60,717 nt of DNA from Alphaproteobacteria bacterium. Lineage in GTDB: Bacteria; Pseudomonadota; Alphaproteobacteria; Rhizobiales; Aestuariivirgaceae. A program made the position numbers and the translations under genes. Location of the stretch: NCBI GenBank assembly GCA_028868695.1, contig JAGWTZ010000015.1, positions 1 to 60,717 on the forward strand, read 5' to 3'. Positions 757 to 12,130 of the stretch are shown here, piece after piece; position 1 is the stretch's first letter, and each line of letters begins with the position of its first letter. The notes below the pieces were generated by a model that searched no databases, was not told the DNA's origin, and saw nothing but the letters and a program-made list of their open reading frames with translations.

Positions 757-1061
757 ATGATTCCCGGCGAAGTCATCACCAAGTCTGGCGACATTGAGCT
801 CAACGCAGGCGCCAAGAGCATCACCCTCGAAGTGGCCAACACAGGTGACAGGCCCATTCAGGTGGGCAGCCACTATCATTTCTTTGAAACCAACGAGTCG
901 CTGAAATTTGAACGTGCGAAGGCAAGGGGCATGCGCCTCGACATTGCGGCGGGAACGGCGGTGCGCTTTGAGCCCGGCCAGCGCCGCGAAGTGACGCTTG
1001 TGCCATTGGGTGGGGCGCGCAAAGTCTTCGGCTTTCAACAGAAGATCATGGGGGCGCTGTG

Positions 1062-1062
<1 letters not shown>
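757..1062 (+). CDS. ureB: Urease beta subunit
   Basis: This 101-residue protein starts MIPGEVI and has the conserved [10 protein letters not shown] segment near residue 42, both typical of UreB. It is the small beta subunit that packs against UreC in the (UreABC)3 trimer and has no catalytic residues of its own. It lies nine bases after ureA, and its TGA stop shares one base with the ATG of ureC, which suggests translational coupling. Confidence 0.97.
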
Positions 1063-2767
<1,705 letters not shown>

Positions 2768-2768
<1 letters not shown>

Positions 2769-3226
2769 TGGCCCTGCGCGCAATCAAGCATATCTCCCAT
2801 TTTGACGCGGCAGTGGCGGCCTTTGACCGGCTTGTGCTCGACGCGCAGGACCGCCACATGCGCCGCAAGCTGATGACCACGGAGAAGGGCCTCGAGATCC
2901 TGGTGGATCTGCCGCGCCCGGTCTTTTGCACGGAGGGCGAACAGCTCGAACTGGAAGACGGCCGCCGTGTCGCGGTGGCAGCGGCTGAAGAAGACCTCTA
3001 TGAGGTGCGCGGCGCTGGCCCCGCACAGGTTGTATCGCTCGCCTGGCAGTTGGGAAACCGCCACTTGCCCGCCCAGCTGGAGTGGGACAGGATACTCATC
3101 AAACGCGACCCCGTGATCAAGGACATGCTCTTGAAACTCAAAGCCACCGTGACCGATATCCGGTCTCCCTTCAACCCGGCACAAGGCGCCTATGCGGCAC
3201 ATGGACCTTTCGGCCATGACCACTAG
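2768..3226 (+). CDS. ureE: Urease accessory protein UreE (nickel chaperone)
   Basis: A 152-residue protein beginning MALRAIKHI at the ATG that overlaps the ureC stop (TGATG). UreE is a metallochaperone that delivers nickel to the UreDFG-urease complex. An internal WQLGNRHLPAQ segment matches the region of the family that carries the interface histidine. The C-terminus ends GPFGHDH, a short histidine tail compared with the long His-rich tails of some relatives. The frame is open further upstream inside ureC, but the overlapping ATG fits the operon pattern and family length. Confidence 0.93.
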
Positions 3227-3863
3227 CACCCCGGCGCAATTGCTGATGATGCTGAACTGGATGTCGCCGACATTTCCCATCGGCAGCTTTGCTTATTCCA
3301 ATGGGCTGGAACAGGCGATCAGCGCGGGCAAATTGCGCTCACCCGCCGATGTGGAAGGCTGGATCAAGGACATGCTGGAAATGGGCTCAGCCTGGAATGA
3401 CGCCGTGCTCTTTGCCCGCTGCTGGCAAGACAACGCGGCGCAACTGAATGAGCTGGCGCAGGCGATGGCGGGCAGCGCCGAGCGCTATCAGGAAACCATG
3501 CAGCTGGGCCGGAACTTCTGGGATGCGGCGCGCGTCTGGTTCGACAACCTCATGCCCACGGGCAACATGGCTTACCCTGTGGCGGCGGGCTCGGCCTGCG
3601 CGGCGGCTGGCTTGGTTGCCCAGGAAGCACTGCTGGCCTTCCTGCAGAATTTCGTGGCCACGCAAGTCTCGGTGGCTGTCCGGCTTGGCTCTCTCGGCCA
3701 GACCAAGGGGCTTGAGATCATGAAAAACCTTGCGCCGGTGATTGAGCGGGTGGCGGAGCGCGCCTCGAAAGCCACCCTCAAGGATTTGGGCTCTTCCACA
3801 ATTGGCGGGGACATGGCCTCCATGCTGCACGAAAACATGTATTCGCGGATTTTCCGCACATGA
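3216..3863 (+). CDS. ureF: Urease accessory protein UreF
   Basis: About 215 residues. The family hallmark [16 protein letters not shown] follows shortly after the chosen start, and the C-terminal tyrosine-rich end MYSRIFRT is also typical. UreF bridges UreD and UreG and is thought to gate GTPase activity during nickel insertion. ATG 3216 was chosen because conservation begins just after it and it overlaps ureE by only 11 bases; ATG 3192 and ATG 3201 in the same frame are alternatives adding 8 or 5 residues. None of the three has a clear ribosome binding site, as expected for a translationally coupled gene. Confidence 0.92.
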
Positions 3864-4477
3864 GCCGCAACGGGCCCTTGCGCGTGGGCATTGGCGGGCC
3901 GGTGGGCTCCGGCAAGACGACGCTGACCGAAAAACTCTGCAAGGCCATGCGCGAGAAATACTCAGTGGCCGCCATCACCAATGACATCTACACGAAGGAA
4001 GATGCGCTGATCCTCAACCGGCTGCAGGCCTTGCCGGAAGAGCGCATCATGGGTGTCGAGACTGGCGGCTGCCCGCATACGGCCATCCGGGAAGACGCCT
4101 CGATCAATCTTGCGGCCATTGATGAAATGACGTCCCGCATCCCCGATCTTGATGTGGTGTTCATTGAATCGGGCGGCGACAATCTTTCCGCTACCTTTTC
4201 ACCTGAGCTGGCGGACATCACGCTTTATGTCATTTCGGTCTGCCAGGGTGAGAAGATCCCGCGCAAGGGCGGGCCGGCGATCACCCGCTCAGACCTGCTG
4301 ATCATCAACAAGGCTGATCTGGCGCCGCATGTGATGGCGGACCTTGCGGTGATGGAACATGACGCCAAGGCGCAACGGGGGTCACGGCCATTTGTGTTCA
4401 CCGACCTGTTGCGGCTCAAAGGTGTGGATGACATCGTGGCCTTCCTTGAAAAGCAAGGGGGCCTTCAGGCTGCTTGA
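3860..4477 (+). CDS. ureG: Urease accessory GTPase UreG
   Basis: A 205-residue SIMIBI-class GTPase. Visible motifs are the P-loop GPVGSGKTT (from about residue 13), the metal-binding [10 protein letters not shown] with its Cys-Pro-His, the ESGGDNL switch segment, and NKADL for guanine specificity. GTP hydrolysis by UreG drives nickel delivery into urease. It overlaps ureF by four bases (ATGA) and is the last gene of the operon. Its 3' end faces the convergent tRNA-Cys gene 12 bases away. Confidence 0.97.
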
Positions 4478-4488
4478 AGAAGGGGGAA

Positions 4489-4561
4489 TGGAGGCCTTGC
4501 CTGGGATTGAACCAGGATATGCGAGTTTGCACCCCGCCGCGTAAGCTTCCGCCACAAGGCC
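4489..4561 (-). tRNA. tRNA-Cys (anticodon GCA)
   Basis: Reading the minus strand gives a 73-base cloverleaf with encoded CCA: acceptor GGCCTTG/CAAGGCC, anticodon stem GCGGG/CTCGC with loop GTGCAAA (anticodon GCA), and T arm CCTGG-TTCAATC-CCAGG. The D arm is short (GCG/CGC with loop GAAGCTTA) and lacks the usual GG doublet. The 5' end is at 4561. No promoter was identified. Confidence 0.9.
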
Positions 4562-4657
4562 GTGTGGCCACTGTAACATCACTTGGCGATTGCAAGCTTT
4601 CCAAAAGCCATGCATGTGGTGGGACTTCGAATCCTCCTTAATGAACAGTTAACGGCC

Positions 4658-5548
4658 ATGGTCTCTTCCCAAAATCTGCGCGGCGTGGGCTATATGATGC
4701 TCAGCGGGCTGGTTTTCGTGTTCAATGACGTTTTGCTGAAGCTGGCGATGGGCGGCCTGCCGCCCTATGAAGTTCTCGCCCTGCGCGGCATTTCGGGGGC
4801 TTTCTTTGCGCTGGTTTTCATCTGGCGCAGCGGCGGGGCAAGGATTGCGCCTTCCCAGATGGGCCGCCCCGTGTTCCTGCGGGCCGGTTTTGAGTGCCTG
4901 GCCATTCTCACCTACATCATCGCGCTGGCCCATGCGCCCATTGGCGATGTGACCGCCATTTTCCAGACCACGCCGCTGTTGGTGTTTCTCGGCATGGTTG
5001 TCATTCACCGCGAGAAAACCAGCCTGGCCCGGCTGGGGCTGGTTGTGCTGGGCTTTGCTGGCGCGTTGCTGGTGGCACAGCCGGGGCAAGGCACGGTGTC
5101 GCCCCTGGTTCTGCTGGCCTTCATCACCACTGTTTTTGCTGCTTTGCGCGATTTGGCGGCACGGCAGATTCCAGCCTCGGTGCCAGCGCTTGTTTCGACG
5201 CTGGTGCTCATACTCACCGTGCTTTCCGGCGCCCTGGCCTGCGGGTTGCTGTTTGAGAAATGGGAAGTGCCGCCGCTGAAGATCGCTGGCCTGGCCTTTG
5301 CCGCAGGGCTTTTCATGATGCTGGGCCACCATTACACCCTGCTCGCCTACCGCACGGCGGCGGCGCAGATCATAGCGCCATTTTACTACAGCTTCATGGT
5401 GTTTGCGGTGGGCTTTGGCTACGTGGTGTTTGGCGATGTGCCCAACTGGCTCGGCGTGGGTGGCATGGTGCTGATCGTGGTGAGCGGGCTTCTCATCCTG
5501 ACGCTGGACCGGCGCACGGCAACCTCCGAGCCCGAGCCTTCTGCCTGA
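4658..5548 (+). CDS. EamA/DMT-family membrane transporter
   Basis: About 296 residues with roughly ten hydrophobic segments in two halves, the architecture of EamA (drug/metabolite transporter superfamily) carriers. Each half contains EamA-like stretches, for example FNDVLLKLAMGG near the N-terminus and HHYTLLAYRTAAAQIIAPF in the second half. It should sit in the inner membrane and export small metabolites; the substrate cannot be read from sequence. ATG 4658 was chosen because the first transmembrane segment follows directly; an in-frame start at 4583 would run close to the tRNA-Cys gene and add a non-conserved leader. Confidence 0.85.
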   Translation: MVSSQNLRGVGYMMLSGLVFVFNDVLLKLAMGGLPPYEVLALRGISGAFFALVFIWRSGGARIAPSQMGRPVFLRAGFECLAILTYIIALAHAPIGDVTAIFQTTPLLVFLGMVVIHREKTSLARLGLVVLGFAGALLVAQPGQGTVSPLVLLAFITTVFAALRDLAARQIPASVPALVSTLVLILTVLSGALACGLLFEKWEVPPLKIAGLAFAAGLFMMLGHHYTLLAYRTAAAQIIAPFYYSFMVFAVGFGYVVFGDVPNWLGVGGMVLIVVSGLLILTLDRRTATSEPEPSA

Positions 5549-5693
5549 GCCTCCCACGCGGAATTTGCATGAGGTGCGTGCGTCAATGCGATTCATGTCG
5601 CAATCGGGATGGGCTATGACGATCATGGCCATTCCGCCGGGGTGAAGCTGCGGCCAAGTGTGCAGGCTTTTCCATTTCTCTGAAAGTTCCTCC

Positions 5694-8666
5694 ATGTCCA
5701 GCACTGCCCAACTCCTCGAGCAATACCAGGCAACCCTTGCGCTCACCCGCGAAGGCCCGCCAGCCCGCACCAGCAACCAGTTCTTCGGCGTGGGCCCGAT
5801 CACCGACGGTGTGGCCGACGAAGCCGAGGCGCGGGCGCTGCGCTTCGAATTTGAGCATTGGCTGGAGCAGAACTACCGCAAGCTGGACGACAAGGGCCGT
5901 GACCTCGGGCCATTCACCGTGGCCGAGATGGGCCGCTCGATGCACCGTGGCTATCCCGCCGACAAGGTGATCCTCGACATGATGCGCGAGATTCACCGCT
6001 ATTTCGGCTTCCCCAAGGAAAACCGCATGGCGGTGGGCCTGGGCGGCGGCCACTCGGGCTTCACGGTTTGCGCGCTGCACTTGATCAGCCCGTCAGACTC
6101 CAGCCAGCAGATTTATGTCGATACCCCTGCGCCGGAATCCACGGCTGGCAAATCCGGCGGCTTCTTCCGCCAGAGCTGGGGCGCGCAGATCACCGAAATG
6201 ATGCGGCTGGGCCGCGGTGGCGACGAAAGCCGCCTGCATTTTGCCGGCGAGGAAGGCCATATCCCCGAAGCCGCCACACTCAAGGCCATGGGTGTGAAGC
6301 TCGTGTTTGGCGTGGGCCATGAAACCACGGGGGCCACAACCTATTCAGACTCTGACATCAAGAACCTCTTGGCGTGGATTGACCTTGATCCGGCGCAGCA
6401 TCATGCAGTGCTGGACGCAACCTCCCTGCTGGGCGGCATGCCCTGGGACGAGGGCGTGGTGAAGCAGGTGATGGCGAAGTGCTGTTTCTTCATGCCGTTC
6501 CAGAAGGCGATCGGCGGCATCTCCGGCTATTATGTGGCAAGTTTCACGCCGCAGGCGCTGGCACTGGTTGAGGCCAACCAGAAGAAGCCCGGCTTTGCCA
6601 TTCCGCGCCAGCTGAAGCTGGCCGCCCCGGTTGATCCGAAGCTGCCGCTTTCGGGCGAACGCACGGTGAATATCGGCCCGTTCTATGATGCCGCGCAAGG
6701 CAAGATGCTGGGTGGTGTCATCAACACCTTCTCCATTCTGGCCTTTGCGGAAACCACATTCGGCCTGTTGCGCATGGAAAAGCGGGTGGGCGATGTGATG
6801 AACCTCAACCGCCGCTCCACCGCCAACCGCACCGCCGCCAACGAATGGATTGCCAAGAGCGACATTCTCGAACTGGGAGTTACCGACGCCACCCGCCGTG
6901 GCGCTGCCGTCACCCTGCTCAAGGTGAAGGACAAGGACATCAGCGATCCCGCCGTGCATGCCCGCATCATCCAGAAATCCAAGCAGCTCTTGGCCTATGA
7001 CGGCAACACCCATGTGGATGGGCGCCATGAAGGCGGGCTTGACGTGGCCCGCTACATCAACGCCTTCCCCGGAACGCCGGGGGATTACCGCGCCTGGATT
7101 GGCGGCATCCGCCCGGTTGCTGATGTGGCGGCGCTGTTTGGCAATATCCGCTATGCTTATCTGCGCGCGAAGCTTGCCGTGCTGGAAGAAGAGCTGCAGA
7201 AGCTGGGGCACAATTTCGAGCCAGCCGAGGCGGCAGGTGGCGATGCGCTGCGGCGCATGGATGACCCTGCCCGCGCCTACAAGGTTCTGGTGTGTGATCT
7301 CGTTGGCCTCAAGTTCGGCACCGATGGCAAGCCCGATGCTTCCGAAGTGAAGGCCCATGTGGAGGCCAAGGGTGGCGTGTTCCATCTTGGTGACCAAGCC
7401 GGCCATGGCGCCTTGGCCAAGGGCAAGATCCACTTCTTCTACATGCCCGACATTTCCACAGAAGCAGAGATCCTGCCCCTCACCGACAAGGGCCAGTATG
7501 ATGCAGTAATCGCGGCCGCCACCTTCCTGCCGAAGGGCAGCCAGTTTGCACTGGGGGGCGTGCGCATCGGGGCGGGCACCGGCAACATGGGCTCTGCCTC
7601 CTGGGGCGGCGGCAATGGGGCGGGCGGCGCTGCGCCCTTGATGAACACGCCCAGCTTCAATAGCCGCGCCACAGCGCAGATGACCATGAAGGCGCTGCTG
7701 CGGGTGCTGCCAGACCTGCCCACGCAGAAGCTGCACATGATGAGCGTTTCCGGCACGTTCGACACCGGCAAGAATCTCAAGGACTTCCCCACCGAAAGGC
7801 TGGAAGGCAAGACCATGGCAGTGATCGGCTATGGCAACATCGGCCGCGAAGTGGCGCATCTGGCGCTGGCTTTCTGCATGAAGGTGAAAATCCACGCCCG
7901 CCCGCGCTACAAGGCCTGGATTGAATCCGAAGGCTTCGTTTATGCACCCAGCGTTGAGGAAGCAGCAACAGGTGCTGACGTCATCAGCATTCACACCGGG
8001 CTGGGGCCCAAGGATGCGGCCACCGGGCGGTTTGCCAATGAAGGCCTGATCAACGCCGCCATTCTGGAAAAGCTGAACCCTGGCGCTGTGTTGCTCAACT
8101 ATGATCGCGGCGAATGTGTGGACGTCAAGGCGCTGGACGCGGCGCTGGCTTCGCGCCAGCTGCGGGCAGCGGCCATTGATGCTGATGTGTTCAAGGCTGC
8201 CGATGGCTCTCTCACAGGCCCGCTGGCGCCTTACCTGCCACTGGCCGCCAGATATGGCGACAGGCTGGAGCTGCTGCCCCATGCCGCCGCTGACACAGAT
8301 CATCCTTCGCGCGTGGCCGGGGCCAAGCAGGCCGTGGACCAGATCTTTGATTGCATCCAATTCAAGCGGGTGAGCAACCTCAAGGGTGATTTGCCGGAGG
8401 GCTACAGCAATGCCGGCTCCACCACCGTGCCCGGCGTCGGCAAGGTGACGGCGCAGGTGCTGGCTTCCGCAGTTGGCGACAAGGACACGCTTGCTGGCTT
8501 GCGCCGCGAAGCTGAAAACATGGCGGCCCTGTGGGCAGCCCTGGACACGGCTGCGCCGGGGCAAGTGGCCGAGCAGATCAGGCGCCATGGAGCGGAATTG
8601 ACGGCGGCGATCAACCGCTATCAGGCTTTGACGCGGCGCCTTGGGCTTTGGGGCCCCTTCGAATAA
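5694..8666 (+). CDS. Fused phosphoserine aminotransferase-like / phosphoglycerate dehydrogenase-like protein
   Basis: A 990-residue protein with two enzyme domains. Residues 1 to about 390 resemble class-V PLP aminotransferases of the SerC type, with HETTGATT, the PLP-contacting Asp in VLDATS and the Schiff-base Lys271 in FQKAIGG. From about residue 530 a D-2-hydroxyacid dehydrogenase (SerA-like) domain follows: substrate half with MNTPSFNSRATAQ, NAD-binding GYGNIG at 712-717, catalytic Arg805 in NYDRGE and His863 in LLPHAAADT. The usual DVFxxEP acid is not in its canonical place. If both halves are active the protein would carry out the first two serine-biosynthesis steps. ATG 5694 lies just before the conserved region. 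It is monocistronic, with a terminator 25 bases downstream. Substrates are inferred. Confidence 0.8.
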   Translation: MSSTAQLLEQYQATLALTREGPPARTSNQFFGVGPITDGVADEAEARALRFEFEHWLEQNYRKLDDKGRDLGPFTVAEMGRSMHRGYPADKVILDMMREIHRYFGFPKENRMAVGLGGGHSGFTVCALHLISPSDSSQQIYVDTPAPESTAGKSGGFFRQSWGAQITEMMRLGRGGDESRLHFAGEEGHIPEAATLKAMGVKLVFGVGHETTGATTYSDSDIKNLLAWIDLDPAQHHAVLDATSLLGGMPWDEGVVKQVMAKCCFFMPFQKAIGGISGYYVASFTPQALALVEANQKKPGFAIPRQLKLAAPVDPKLPLSGERTVNIGPFYDAAQGKMLGGVINTFSILAFAETTFGLLRMEKRVGDVMNLNRRSTANRTAANEWIAKSDILELGVTDATRRGAAVTLLKVKDKDISDPAVHARIIQKSKQLLAYDGNTHVDGRHEGGLDVARYINAFPGTPGDYRAWIGGIRPVADVAALFGNIRYAYLRAKLAVLEEELQKLGHNFEPAEAAGGDALRRMDDPARAYKVLVCDLVGLKFGTDGKPDASEVKAHVEAKGGVFHLGDQAGHGALAKGKIHFFYMPDISTEAEILPLTDKGQYDAVIAAATFLPKGSQFALGGVRIGAGTGNMGSASWGGGNGAGGAAPLMNTPSFNSRATAQMTMKALLRVLPDLPTQKLHMMSVSGTFDTGKNLKDFPTERLEGKTMAVIGYGNIGREVAHLALAFCMKVKIHARPRYKAWIESEGFVYAPSVEEAATGADVISIHTGLGPKDAATGRFANEGLINAAILEKLNPGAVLLNYDRGECVDVKALDAALASRQLRAAAIDADVFKAADGSLTGPLAPYLPLAARYGDRLELLPHAAADTDHPSRVAGAKQAVDQIFDCIQFKRVSNLKGDLPEGYSNAGSTTVPGVGKVTAQVLASAVGDKDTLAGLRREAENMAALWAALDTAAPGQVAEQIRRHGAELTAAINRYQALTRRLGLWGPFE

Positions 8667-8691
8667 GTATCGCAGCAACCCAAAAAAGAAA

Positions 8692-8720
8692 CGCCGCAGA
8701 GCCACCTCTGCGGCGTTTTT
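8692..8720. terminator. Bidirectional rho-independent terminator
   Basis: A perfect 10-bp stem (CGCCGCAGAG/CTCTGCGGCG) with loop CCAC is flanked by T5 on the plus strand and an A-rich run (8682-8690) that reads as T-rich on the minus strand. It lies between two convergent genes, the SerC-SerA fusion and mbfA, and should stop transcription from both sides. Confidence 0.9.
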
Positions 8721-8732
8721 CGTTGGCTCGGG

Positions 8733-9689
8733 CTAGGCGTTTCCGATCAGGATGCCGGTGAGGAACACCAGGATGCCACCCACGGCGATTTGCAGGGCAG
8801 CCTTGAAAATCGGCGTATCCATATACTTGTTGCGGATCCAGGTGATGGCCGCGAGTTCGATCAGCACAATCACAATGGCCAGCGCCAAGGCCGTGTGGAA
8901 TTGCGGAATGAGGAAGGGGATGGTGTGGCCGAGGCCGCCCACCGCAGTCATCACGCCGGCCGCAAGGCCGCGGATCAGCGGGTGGCCACGGCCTGTCAGC
9001 TTGCCATCATCCGAGAGGCCTTCGGCCAGGCCCATGGAAATGCCAGCGCCCACCGAGGCGGCAACGCCCACAAGGAAAGTTTGCCAGGTGTTGTTGGTGG
9101 CGAAAGCGGCGGCAAAAATGGGCGCCAGCGTTGACACAGAACCGTCCATCAATCCCACCAGGCCTGGCTGCACCACTTGCAGCAGGAACAGGCGGCGCTC
9201 AGCCTCCTGCTCATGGGCCGCGGCATCCGGCGTCACGTGGGTGAGGCCCAGCTTGTCGGCAAGGGATTCATGGCCCTTTTCGGCAGCTGCCAGGTCCTGC
9301 AACAGTTTTCGGATGGCAGGGTCTTTGGTCTGTTCCGCGGCCTGGGTGTAGAAGCGGTGATTCTCGGCCTCAACCACTTCCGCACGCTTGCGCATGGTGT
9401 CGATGCCCAGCTTGGTGATCATGTAGATCGGCCTGTGCTTCACAAAGCCATGCACATCGGCGCGGCGGATGAGCGGCACGAAATCACCGAACTTGGCGCG
9501 GTAAGCCTTGGTCAGGCGGTCGCGGTGTTCAAATTCCTCGGCCGACATTTCCATGAAAACCTTGGCGGAGGCGGGATAGGTTTGCATCAGCTCATTGGCA
9601 AACATGCCGTAAGCGCGCGCGTCATCCTCTTCCGAGGAGATGGCAAGGGCGAGGATTTCCTGTTCGGTGAGGTCTGAAAAGCTTTTCAT
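8733..9689 (-). CDS. mbfA: MbfA, membrane-bound ferritin-like iron exporter (erythrin-VIT1 fusion)
   Basis: A 318-residue protein with an N-terminal ferritin-like (erythrin) domain and a C-terminal VIT1/CCC1-type membrane domain. Ferroxidase-type ligands are visible: Glu20 in ISSEEDDARAY, EEFEHRD around 51-57, Glu107 in VVEAENHRF, and AEKGHES near 136. The VIT1 part has the MDGSVSTLAP motif and several transmembrane segments. In Bradyrhizobium and Agrobacterium MbfA exports ferrous iron and is repressed by Irr. Here a perfect ICE palindrome lies 12-28 bases upstream of the start, which strongly supports the same regulation. It is transcribed toward a shared terminator. Confidence 0.93.
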   Translation of the reverse strand: MKSFSDLTEQEILALAISSEEDDARAYGMFANELMQTYPASAKVFMEMSAEEFEHRDRLTKAYRAKFGDFVPLIRRADVHGFVKHRPIYMITKLGIDTMRKRAEVVEAENHRFYTQAAEQTKDPAIRKLLQDLAAAEKGHESLADKLGLTHVTPDAAAHEQEAERRLFLLQVVQPGLVGLMDGSVSTLAPIFAAAFATNNTWQTFLVGVAASVGAGISMGLAEGLSDDGKLTGRGHPLIRGLAAGVMTAVGGLGHTIPFLIPQFHTALALAIVIVLIELAAITWIRNKYMDTPIFKAALQIAVGGILVFLTGILIGNA

Positions 9690-9700
9690 GATGCCACCTT

Positions 9701-9717
9701 TTTAGAATAATTCTAAA
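9701..9717. promoter_or_regulatory. ICE box (Irr-binding site) upstream of mbfA
   Basis: TTTAGAATAATTCTAAA is a perfect inverted repeat (TTTAGAA-TAA-TTCTAAA) and matches the iron control element bound by the haem-responsive regulator Irr in rhizobia. It lies 11 bases upstream of the mbfA start codon, a position suited to repression. The function is inferred from the motif and from known mbfA control in relatives. Confidence 0.88.
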
Positions 9718-9744
9718 CGAAGTCCAGCGCCCAGTCTGCCCTGC

Positions 9745-10293
9745 TCAGGGCGTGATGCCGCAGCTTTTCAGGAATTCGGTGAACTTAGGCGTGTCTGGCA
9801 AATCAACAGGCGTGCCGCCCGTGCCAATCAGCATGACAGCCTTGCCCGGCTCCGCGTCACGCATGGCTTTCCAGAGATCACCGCCCACATCCAGGGTGAT
9901 CTCAAACTGCTGGTGATAGTGCGACTTTGGGTCCTTGACTGGCTTAACCGCCACGGCCTTGTTCAGCGTCTTGCCATTGGCCTTGAAATCCGCGGTGTAG
10001 CCGGAGCCGCTCTTCTTCAAGGTGGATTTCGGCCCATCCATGCTGAAGGTCATGTCATTGTCCTCCGCCCCCAGAGGCAAAAGGACGCGTAAAGTTCTCG
10101 AGCCATCGGTGCAGGTGACATGGGTGAGCATATATTCTTCAGAAACCAGCGTGCCGTCCACGCCCATCTTGAAGTCATAGACTGAGGCGCCTTTCACCCG
10201 GGCAAAGCTTTCGGCCACATCTTCCTTTTCCTGAGCCAAGGCGGGAATCGAAAGGGCCAGTGCGGATGCGAGAATGGCGGGGATGAGTTTCAT
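9745..10293 (-). CDS. Secreted protein of unknown function
   Basis: A 182-residue protein with a clear signal peptide (MKLIPAILASALALSIPALA, cleavage probably before QEKED). The rest is hydrophilic, with two cysteines (in VTCTDGS and SCGITP) that could form a disulfide. I recognise no catalytic motif. It is transcribed in the same direction as lepA upstream (32-base gap) and mbfA downstream (55-base gap), but the mbfA gap contains its own Irr box, so it need not be co-transcribed with mbfA. Confidence 0.75.
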   Translation of the reverse strand: MKLIPAILASALALSIPALAQEKEDVAESFARVKGASVYDFKMGVDGTLVSEEYMLTHVTCTDGSRTLRVLLPLGAEDNDMTFSMDGPKSTLKKSGSGYTADFKANGKTLNKAVAVKPVKDPKSHYHQQFEITLDVGGDLWKAMRDAEPGKAVMLIGTGGTPVDLPDTPKFTEFLKSCGITP

Positions 10294-10324
10294 GAAATGC
10301 TCCTGCTCACGGCAGGAGCATCAC

Positions 10325-12130
10325 TCAATTCTCGTCCATCTTCAAGGCGGCGATGAAAGCTTCCTGCGGGATTTCGACCTTGCCGAATTGCCGCATCTTC
10401 TTCTTGCCTTCCTTCTGCTTGTCGAGAAGCTTGCGCTTGCGGCTGATGTCGCCGCCATAGCATTTGGCGGTCACGTCCTTGCGCAAGGCAGAAATGGTCT
10501 CGCGCGCCACGATCTTGCCGCCGATTGCCGCCTGGATCGGAATGTTGAACATGTGCTTGGGGATCAAGTCCTTGAGCTTCTCGCACATGCCGCGCCCGCG
10601 CTGTTCGGCGCGGCTGCGGTGCACGATCATCGACAGTGCGTCCACTGGCTCGGCATTCACCAGCACGCTCATCTTCACCAGATCAGCCTCTTCATAGCCG
10701 ATCATCTTGTAGTCGAAGCTGGCATAGCCGGAGGAGACGGATTTCAGCCGGTCATAGAAATCGAACACCACTTCATTGAGCGGCAGGTCATAGATCACCA
10801 TGGCGCGGCTGCCGGCATAGGTCAGCTGTTTCTGGCGGCCGCGCCGGTCTTCGCACAGCTTGAGAACCGAGCCCAGATATTCATCTGGCACCAGGATCTG
10901 CGCCTCAATCCAGGGCTCTTCCATGCTTTCAATCAGCGTCACATCCGGCATGTCGGCCGGATTGTGCATCATGATCTGCGTGCCATCGCGCATGTTGAGC
11001 TTGTAGATGACGCTCGGCGCGGTGGTGATGAGATCAATGTTGAACTCGCGCTCCAGCCGCTCGCGGATGATCTCGAGGTGGAGCAGGCCAAGGAAGCCGC
11101 AGCGGAAGCCAAAGCCCAGGGCGGCCGAGGTTTCCATTTCAAAGGAGAAGCTGGCGTCATTGAGCCGAAGCTTGGCCATGGCGTCGCGCAGGTCTTCAAA
11201 GTCGGCCGCATCGACGGGGAAGAAGCCAGCAAACACCACACTTTGCGCCTCGCGGAAACCGGGCAGCGGGGCATCGGCGGGGTTCTTTTCGTCGGTGATC
11301 GTGTCACCCACGCGCGTGTCCGCCACCTGCTTGATCTGCGCCGTGAAGAAGCCGATTTCGCCGGGGCCCAGGCTTTCGACGATTTCCTTCTTGGGGCGGG
11401 AGACGCCAACACGGTCCAGCACATATTGGCCGCCGGTGCCCATCAGCTTCACCTTCTGGCCCTTGCGCAGCTCGCCATCAATGACGCGGGCGAGAACGAC
11501 CACGCCGAGATAGGGGTCATACCAGGAGTCCACCAGCAGCGCCTTCAGCGGCTTGTTGATGTCGCCCTTCGGCGCGGGCAGCTGCGTGACGATGGCTTCC
11601 AGCACATCGGGCACGCCCACGCCTGTCTTGGCGGAAATGGGAATGGCGCCGGAGGCATCAATGCCGATCACATCCTCAATCTGCTGGCGGATGCGTTCCG
11701 GCTCAGCAGCGGGAAGATCGACCTTGTTGAGGACCGGCACGATTTCAAGGTTGTTGTTGATGGCCTGGTAGACGTTGGCCAGCGTCTGGGCTTCCACGCC
11801 CTGGCTTGCGTCCACCACCAGCAGCGCGCCTTCGCAGGCGGCGAGAGAGCGCGAGACTTCATAGGCAAAGTCCACATGCCCGGGCGTGTCGATCAGGTTC
11901 AGCACATAGGTTTTGCCGTCCTTGGCCTTGTAGTCGAGACGAACGGTGTTGGCCTTGATGGTGATGCCGCGTTCACGCTCCAGATCCATCGAGTCGAGGA
12001 TCTGGTCCTGCATCTCGCGATCTGACACCGCACCGGTGAGCTGGATGATGCGGTCCGCCAGCGTGGATTTGCCGTGGTCAATATGCGCAATGATCGAGAA
12101 ATTGCGGATGAGGGAGATGTCTGTAGCCAT
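10325..12130 (-). CDS. lepA: Elongation factor 4 (LepA), ribosomal back-translocase
   Basis: A 601-residue translational GTPase of the normal LepA length. The G domain has [18 protein letters not shown] and NKVDLP, followed by EF-G-like domains and the LepA-specific C-terminal domain ending in [10 protein letters not shown]. LepA acts on ribosomes and affects elongation and initiation under stress. The start ATG at 12130 gives the conserved [20 protein letters not shown] beginning. Confidence 0.97.

Follow-up and report, generated by a model that had tools for sequence, protein, structure and literature searches.

Fusions of phosphoglycerate dehydrogenase (PGDH) with phosphoserine aminotransferase (PSAT) have been published for oomycetes, brown algae and Thecamonas, according to the available passages of two reports (PMC2705460; PMC5715807), and a classification of dehydrogenases describes 22 subfamilies in a text that contains neither "aminotransferase" nor "fused" (PMC6303947). 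A search of the open-access literature, judged from listings and passages, brought up no paper that we recognized as describing a bacterial aminotransferase-dehydrogenase fusion, which is weak evidence of absence. Here we analyze such a fusion gene from an alphaproteobacterium of the family Aestuariivirgaceae, located on contig JAGWTZ010000015.1 of assembly GCA_028868695.1, positions 1 to 60,717 (the whole stretch analyzed, hereafter the window). The initial annotation, made from the letters of the window, had read the gene as a SerC-like aminotransferase followed in the same chain by a D-2-hydroxyacid dehydrogenase, and domain comparisons bear this reading out. The fusion is a real, conserved and uncharacterized enzyme of alphaproteobacteria.

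The proposed reaction

We propose, with a probability of about 75%, that the fusion is a bifunctional enzyme that converts an amino acid via a 2-oxo acid to a D-2-hydroxy acid. The N-terminal aminotransferase, dependent on pyridoxal phosphate (PLP), would convert an L-amino acid to a 2-oxo acid, which the attached dehydrogenase, using NADPH, would then reduce to the D-2-hydroxy acid; either step may be reversible. In this direction the domain order matches the reaction order, so that the apparently reversed arrangement of the two halves ceases to be a puzzle. Our first guess for the substrates is the chain from serine via hydroxypyruvate to D-glycerate, which would feed glycerate 2-kinase and unite two steps from the middle of the serine cycle in a single chain; this choice is tentative, with a little less than an even chance of being right.

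We infer the cofactor, direction and substrates of both steps, and the order from amino acid to D-2-hydroxy acid is preferred because an amine-removing enzyme adjoins the dehydrogenase in some loci, because NADPH is the predicted cofactor and because one type of operon includes a glycerate kinase. The bifunctional reading is also in line with the invariance, in 35 of 35 fusions, of the checked catalytic residues of both halves except a glutamate, Arg736 included. In favor of serine in particular, serine:pyruvate and alanine:glyoxylate aminotransferases belong to the nearest fold matches of the first half, and two fusions have genes of the betaine/N-methyl or hydroxyproline type nearby. Taken as a whole, the fullest form of the proposal, namely a single-chain module in which serine or a close analog yields a 2-oxo acid that is handed over internally and reduced with NADPH to a D-2-hydroxy acid by a dehydrogenase of an undescribed subfamily, providing some alphaproteobacteria with a compact serine-to-glycerate route, is doubtful. 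If the proposed conversion holds, a conserved, often plasmid-borne enzyme of rhizobia and their relatives would link amino-acid breakdown with hydroxy-acid metabolism.

Conservation of the fusion gene

The open reading frame of the fusion is genuine and is conserved far beyond chance. Fifteen relatives align with almost all of it at 62-82% identity, and in two close pairs the nonsynonymous substitution rate (dN) is 0.09-0.17 across both halves against a synonymous rate (dS) of 1.0-2.7, the latter partly saturated. Starting from the in-frame GTG at 5658 would lengthen the protein by 12 residues, but the aligned orthologs have their starts at the ATG (5694) or close to it. An assembly or frameshift artifact is ruled out, since the gene is intact in numerous assemblies, including complete records. 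The residue counts given here refer to 35 distinct full- or near-full-length fusions and 16 distinct stand-alone dehydrogenases, 51 sequences in all, with identical sequences merged; the key residues and their coordinates are collected in Table 1.

The aminotransferase half

The first half of the fusion is a very divergent SerC-like PLP aminotransferase. A Pfam search with it yielded no match up to E 10, and its scores lie below the cut-offs of two PSAT models (32.7 bits against 448 for TIGR01365, 46.7 against 477 for PRK03080), a third weak NCBIfam match being serC_3 at 16.5 bits. Profile comparison with 12 SerC_2 proteins, those among 25 loci that matched a start motif, the SerC of the same genome not included, gave a probability of 98.3 in local mode (E 1.7e-14) and 99.5 in global mode (E 1.6e-21), and an earlier version with two rows mapped the residues in much the same way. 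Moreover, in a structural model built from a shallow alignment of 16 rows (predicted local distance difference test score, pLDDT, 76; predicted template modeling score, pTM, 0.79), mycobacterial PSAT structures rank best, 3vom and 2fyf among the nearest, followed by a mouse aminotransferase, serine:pyruvate and alanine:glyoxylate aminotransferases and other PSATs. Searching the PDB sequences with the first-half profile produced no match at E <= 0.001 and chance-level matches up to E 10.

The binding residues for PLP, carboxylate and phosphate described for Arabidopsis PSAT served as the reference, as given in the available passages of PMC6043687. The PLP lysine (Lys271) and the aspartate of VLDATS (Asp241), like GYGNIG, Arg805 and His863 of the second half, lie where the initial annotation had placed them and do not vary across the 35 fusions. 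With respect to the two residue pairs with which PSAT holds the substrate phosphate, the fusions have a split record: the His-Arg pair is retained in 35 of 35, and the gate-loop pair is replaced by Pro-Gly, again in 35 of 35.

The dehydrogenase half

The second half matches the NAD-binding domain PF02826 (E 3.5e-25; 88.8 bits, passing the gathering score of 25.1); the remaining three Pfam matches of the protein fall below their cut-offs, and no regulatory-domain match was found in the fusion by Pfam, unlike in SerA. By NCBIfam models, this half is about equally distant from PGDH, 2-hydroxyacid dehydrogenases, PdxB and glyoxylate reductase and far under every cut-off: the SerA model TIGR01327 gave 75.4 bits against 454, the PdxB model 62.7 against 434, and the GHRA/GHRB models PRK15409 and PRK15469 34.5 against 492 and 31.3 against 403, respectively. 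Profile comparison with SerA-type proteins (24 rows gathered by a loose pattern, some of them perhaps not SerA, with the SerA of the same genome as the row shown) reached a probability of 99.4 and aligned Arg805 and His863 with the catalytic arginine and histidine. For the entire fusion, a model from a shallow alignment (13 rows; pLDDT 72, pTM 0.51) has CtBP, SerA and D-lactate dehydrogenase as its best structure matches.

At the position of the aspartate that selects NAD in SERA, according to the available part of PMC6303947, all 51 sequences have an arginine, and the dehydrogenase is therefore predicted to use NADP(H). In the passages seen of the same work, the clade of the fusion could not be assigned among the groups X1-X13. 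The initial annotation had called this half a complete dehydrogenase, which holds for the arginine and the histidine, each invariant in 51 of 51, but is too strong as regards the catalytic glutamate: a Glu occupies the aligned column in two of the 35 fusions and two of the 16 stand-alone dehydrogenases, and the next column in 12 and 3 of them, respectively, within a loop that aligns poorly. The lack of conservation at this residue, together with the occurrence of the halves apart from each other, could be taken to mean that one half has no catalytic activity left and acts as a structural or sensing module. This is very improbable given that both halves keep their other checked catalytic residues unchanged in all 35 fusions and that a SERA subtype lacking the glutamate is active, as stated in the available portion of PMC6303947.

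Serine and vitamin B6 genes elsewhere in the genome

The genome, 99.67% complete, encodes on another contig a canonical serC (654 bits; cut-off 448) directly followed by serA (680 bits; cut-off 454), and serC scores above its cut-off in 58 of the 61 genomes comprising this one and its relatives. The initial annotation had suggested looking for separate serA and serC genes, and both are thus present and adjacent. The reading of the fusion as the serC and serA of the cell is not supported, the fusion reaching 33 and 75 bits on the same models; as the sole SerA/SerC of the cell the fusion is ruled out. With its own serC-serA pair, the genome has no need of the fusion for a housekeeping role in serine synthesis, and the fusion is probably not the main serine-making machinery of the cell. 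SerC on plasmids, which we also looked at, added no clue.

The fusion might still be a second or reversed copy of the phosphorylated serine pathway in one chain, interconverting 3-phosphoglycerate, phosphohydroxypyruvate and phosphoserine beside serC-serA. PSAT is the nearest relative of the first half by both profile and fold, the phosphate pair His84-Arg85 is retained throughout, Arg624 aligns with the arginine of the SerA GRAGIG loop, and PGDH-PSAT fusions are known in eukaryotes. Nevertheless, we consider this function rather unlikely in view of the strong separate serC-serA pair, of fusion scores far under both family cut-offs, and of the loss of the basic gate-loop residues and the replacement of the NAD aspartate by arginine in 35 of 35 fusions; furthermore, the glycerate kinase that adjoins two stand-alone dehydrogenases suggests an unphosphorylated product. 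The alternative raised in the initial annotation, recruitment to a different keto or amino acid pathway, fits better; the retained His-Arg pair speaks against dropping phosphorylated substrates.

Another candidate pathway is vitamin B6 synthesis, in which the PdxB and SerC steps would be combined in one chain, from 4-phosphoerythronate via 2-oxo-3-hydroxy-4-phosphobutanoate to 4-phosphohydroxythreonine. We keep it under consideration because pdxA is present in the genome (331 bits); moreover, the dehydrogenase and aminotransferase steps are consecutive, according to the available text of PMC9997740, and none of the matches in the genome was recognized as PdxB. The low score on the PdxB model, the rarity of the fusion in a class in which the pathway is common, and the presence in Sinorhizobium of PdxR instead of PdxB (again from the available text of PMC9997740) make it improbable.

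As for the proposed serine-to-glycerate chain, the genome encodes a glycerate kinase of the MOFRL type, and a GlxK-type kinase was sought in the genome and not found. The search for a serine-glyoxylate aminotransferase says little: four of the five strongest among 16 genomic Aminotran_5 matches were inspected, and all are cysteine-desulfurase-like.

Gene neighborhoods

The surroundings of some stand-alone dehydrogenases provide hints at the proposed conversion to a D-2-hydroxy acid. Two near-identical operons (810-11682 in each locus) on the plasmids pTAV1 of Paracoccus versutus and pMET1 of Aminobacter sp. NyZ550 encode an RraA-like protein, Ldh2, an iron alcohol dehydrogenase (Fe-ADH), an aldehyde dehydrogenase (ALDH), a TRAP transporter, a class II aldolase, the stand-alone dehydrogenase and, directly after it, a glycerate kinase, so annotated (241 bits; the glycerate 2-kinase cut-off is 550). 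In Rhizobium ACO-34A and in genome G690, the stand-alone dehydrogenase directly follows a gene of the DAO family (amino-acid-oxidase type), and the Rhizobium locus has ALDH, GMC oxidoreductase and HpaI-type aldolase genes upstream. The stand-alone copies of genomes G502 and G484 lie by genes of the MFS and aromatic-amino-acid-lyase types, with class III aminotransferase and ALDH genes further on. Among the fusions themselves, one (L097) follows a DAO+GCV_T protein, and another (L115) follows genes for an AraC regulator, a 4-hydroxyproline-epimerase-type enzyme, a betaine-type ABC transporter, DAO and ALDH. Breakdown of betaine/N-methyl compounds and of hydroxyproline can end in glycine and serine.

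The mixed kind of these catabolic clusters, together with the distance of both halves from every characterized family tested, would also suit the same two-step logic with a different kind of substrate, for example a hydroxy-amino acid that is sulfonated, phosphonated or longer. In the loci read, no marker gene of such a pathway immediately adjoins the fusion, and the one match to the sulfolactate-dehydrogenase model, in the glycerate kinase operon, is weak (258 bits; cut-off 500), so that we regard these substrates as unlikely.

Several observations weigh against the conversion of an amino acid to a D-2-hydroxy acid, and of serine in particular. The retained His84-Arg85 pair and the PSATs as best fold matches favor a phosphorylated substrate, and the catalytic glutamate of the dehydrogenase is not conserved. 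A MOFRL-type glycerate kinase is encoded in 55 of the 61 genomes, and its co-occurrence therefore does not discriminate. The two glycerate kinase operons count as one case, and one that lacks the aminotransferase half; most loci have no partner of the glycerate kinase or amino-acid oxidase type, and the neighbors of the other fusions are varied. The stand-alone copies of loci L050-L057 have housekeeping or sugar-uptake genes or a permease beside them, and the fusion of the window stands between urease genes and a permease (names given by eye).

A permease of DMT/EamA appearance also precedes a fusion or a stand-alone dehydrogenase in three further loci (L052, L056 and L062). No general operon partner of the fusion was seen, the permease being lineage-local and the other neighbors housekeeping genes; the gene calls in these neighborhoods favored length, and some antisense frames were taken, including in the permease region of the window. 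Between the urease genes and the permease lies a tRNA gene (about 4492-4561 of the window, minus strand; 299-368 of locus L001), and a ferritin-like/VIT-type gene, named by eye, is convergent with the fusion (8733-9689, minus strand); its family occurs in 11 of the compared loci, also beside stand-alone dehydrogenases. An RNA-family scan of 13 loci at the gathering score detected two tRNAs and nothing else, and no regulatory RNA. In two Sinorhizobium plasmid loci, a gene annotated as class A beta-lactamase, probably unrelated, lies immediately upstream of the fusion.

Distribution and modularity

The initial annotation had proposed a search of Hyphomicrobiales proteomes for the same two-domain architecture; the architecture is present both in the genus of the window and on plasmids of Rhizobium and Sinorhizobium. 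Within the genus (37 genomes including this one), 22 genomes encode a full- or near-full-length fusion, one of them (G420) without the C-terminal tail; six have a partial match only (at least two of these start at a contig end, and the one in G401 has a stop in the stretch), seven a stand-alone dehydrogenase only, and two no strong match. The full fusion occurs in 3 of 385 genomes sampled across the class, this one included. In the sample across the phylum, 8 of 398 genomes match at E <= 1e-40, with four fusions (this one included) and five stand-alone dehydrogenases, one of each in G502. Plasmid records with 80% or more of the protein in one place number 31, chiefly of Rhizobium and Sinorhizobium and also of a Shinella and Paracoccus aminovorans; one Roseateles plasmid record is among the counted matches. 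Among the matches listed, all annotated full-length plasmid copies are named "NAD(P)-dependent oxidoreductase", a name that hides an entire aminotransferase, and shorter matches carry other names ("hypothetical protein", "phosphoglycerate dehydrogenase"). Phage records gave nine weak matches, and the five listed are all to the dehydrogenase part.

The modules occur in several combinations. Stand-alone dehydrogenases have the C-terminal tail in loci L093 and L095 and lack it in L050-L055 and L057, and an Ensifer plasmid carries a copy that ends early within the dehydrogenase half. In locus L058 (contig C3 of G388), an aminotransferase-only paralog of 610 residues (2909-4741, minus strand) lies in tandem with a full fusion (4792-7767, minus strand); it is 58% identical to residues 1-505 of the window's first half, and by eye its C-terminal part resembles the fusion tail, as if the intervening dehydrogenase had been lost. 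A quickly built tree with 54 rows places all 51 dehydrogenases, 35 of them fused and 16 stand-alone, in a single group that excludes three other dehydrogenases of the genome. On this tree the fused or stand-alone state has to change three times or more, and all eight stand-alone copies from the genus cluster together (SH-aLRT 99). Whether the fusion was gained or lost is unsure because this tree, whose root is poorly fixed, lacks bootstraps and has very long outgroup branches. The two forms, fused and stand-alone, coexist in some genomes (G400, with a fusion; G405, with a partial one; and G502) and offer a natural comparison for whether fusion would bring channeling.

Table 1. Features of the fusion gene and its upstream neighbor, in window coordinates
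Feature	Position	Strand	Basis or remark
Permease of DMT/EamA appearance (named by eye)	4583..5548	+	146 bases upstream of the fusion, same strand
Whole fusion gene	5694..8666	+	990 residues plus stop; open frame, orthologs
SerC-like fold-type-I PLP aminotransferase half, residues 1-510	5694..7223	+	SerC_2 profile comparison; model near PSAT 3vom, 2fyf
His84-Arg85, aligned with substrate-phosphate His-Arg pair of PSAT	5943..5948	+	invariant 35/35
Trp162, matched by eye (motif) to PLP-stacking Trp of PSAT	6177..6179	+	invariant 35/35
Asp241 (in VLDATS), partner of PLP ring nitrogen	6414..6416	+	invariant 35/35
Lys271, PLP Schiff-base lysine, preceded by Gln270	6504..6506	+	invariant 35/35
Asn344-Thr345, PLP phosphate contact from dimer mate	6723..6728	+	invariant 35/35
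FPGTPGD, residues 458-464, altered gate loop lacking the basic PSAT residues	7065..7085	+	SerC alignment, 35-copy count
Arg466, substrate carboxylate arginine	7089..7091	+	invariant 35/35
D-2-hydroxyacid dehydrogenase module, residues 515-912	7236..8429	+	PF02826; also occurs alone
Arg624, aligned with arginine of SerA GRAGIG loop	7563..7565	+	invariant 35/35 fusions, 16/16 stand-alone
GYGNIG dinucleotide-binding motif, residues 712-717	7827..7844	+	translation, SerA alignment
Arg736, at position of SerA NAD-selecting Asp	7899..7901	+	invariant 51/51
Arg805, catalytic arginine	8106..8108	+	invariant 51/51
His863, catalytic histidine	8280..8282	+	invariant 51/51
Helical C-terminal tail, residues 913-990	8430..8663	+	variable in stand-alone dehydrogenases; absent from fusion of G420

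Comparison with known systems

The eukaryotic PGDH-PSAT fusions resemble the present protein in combining a D-2-hydroxyacid dehydrogenase with a SerC_2-related aminotransferase in one chain. In the available passages of the reports on them, the dehydrogenase comes first and clusters with animal PGDH, and at least P. infestans has no other PSAT gene; the bacterial chain, by contrast, begins with the aminotransferase, its halves lie far from SerA and SerC, and separate serC and serA genes are present. Compared with SerC_2 (TIGR01365), the first half can be aligned throughout and keeps the PLP- and carboxylate-binding residues, but it scores low, has an altered gate loop and exceeds the compared SerC proteins by about 110 residues. 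Likewise, the second half shares with SerA (TIGR01327) the Rossmann core, the arginine and the histidine, but differs in the arginine that replaces the NAD aspartate, in the lack of a conserved glutamate and in its low score. A functional parallel would be the pair of serine-glyoxylate aminotransferase and hydroxypyruvate reductase of the serine cycle, which catalyze the same pair of reactions as proposed for the fusion; these are separate proteins, and that aminotransferase comes from another branch of class V. The fusion is a new architecture built from known enzyme classes.

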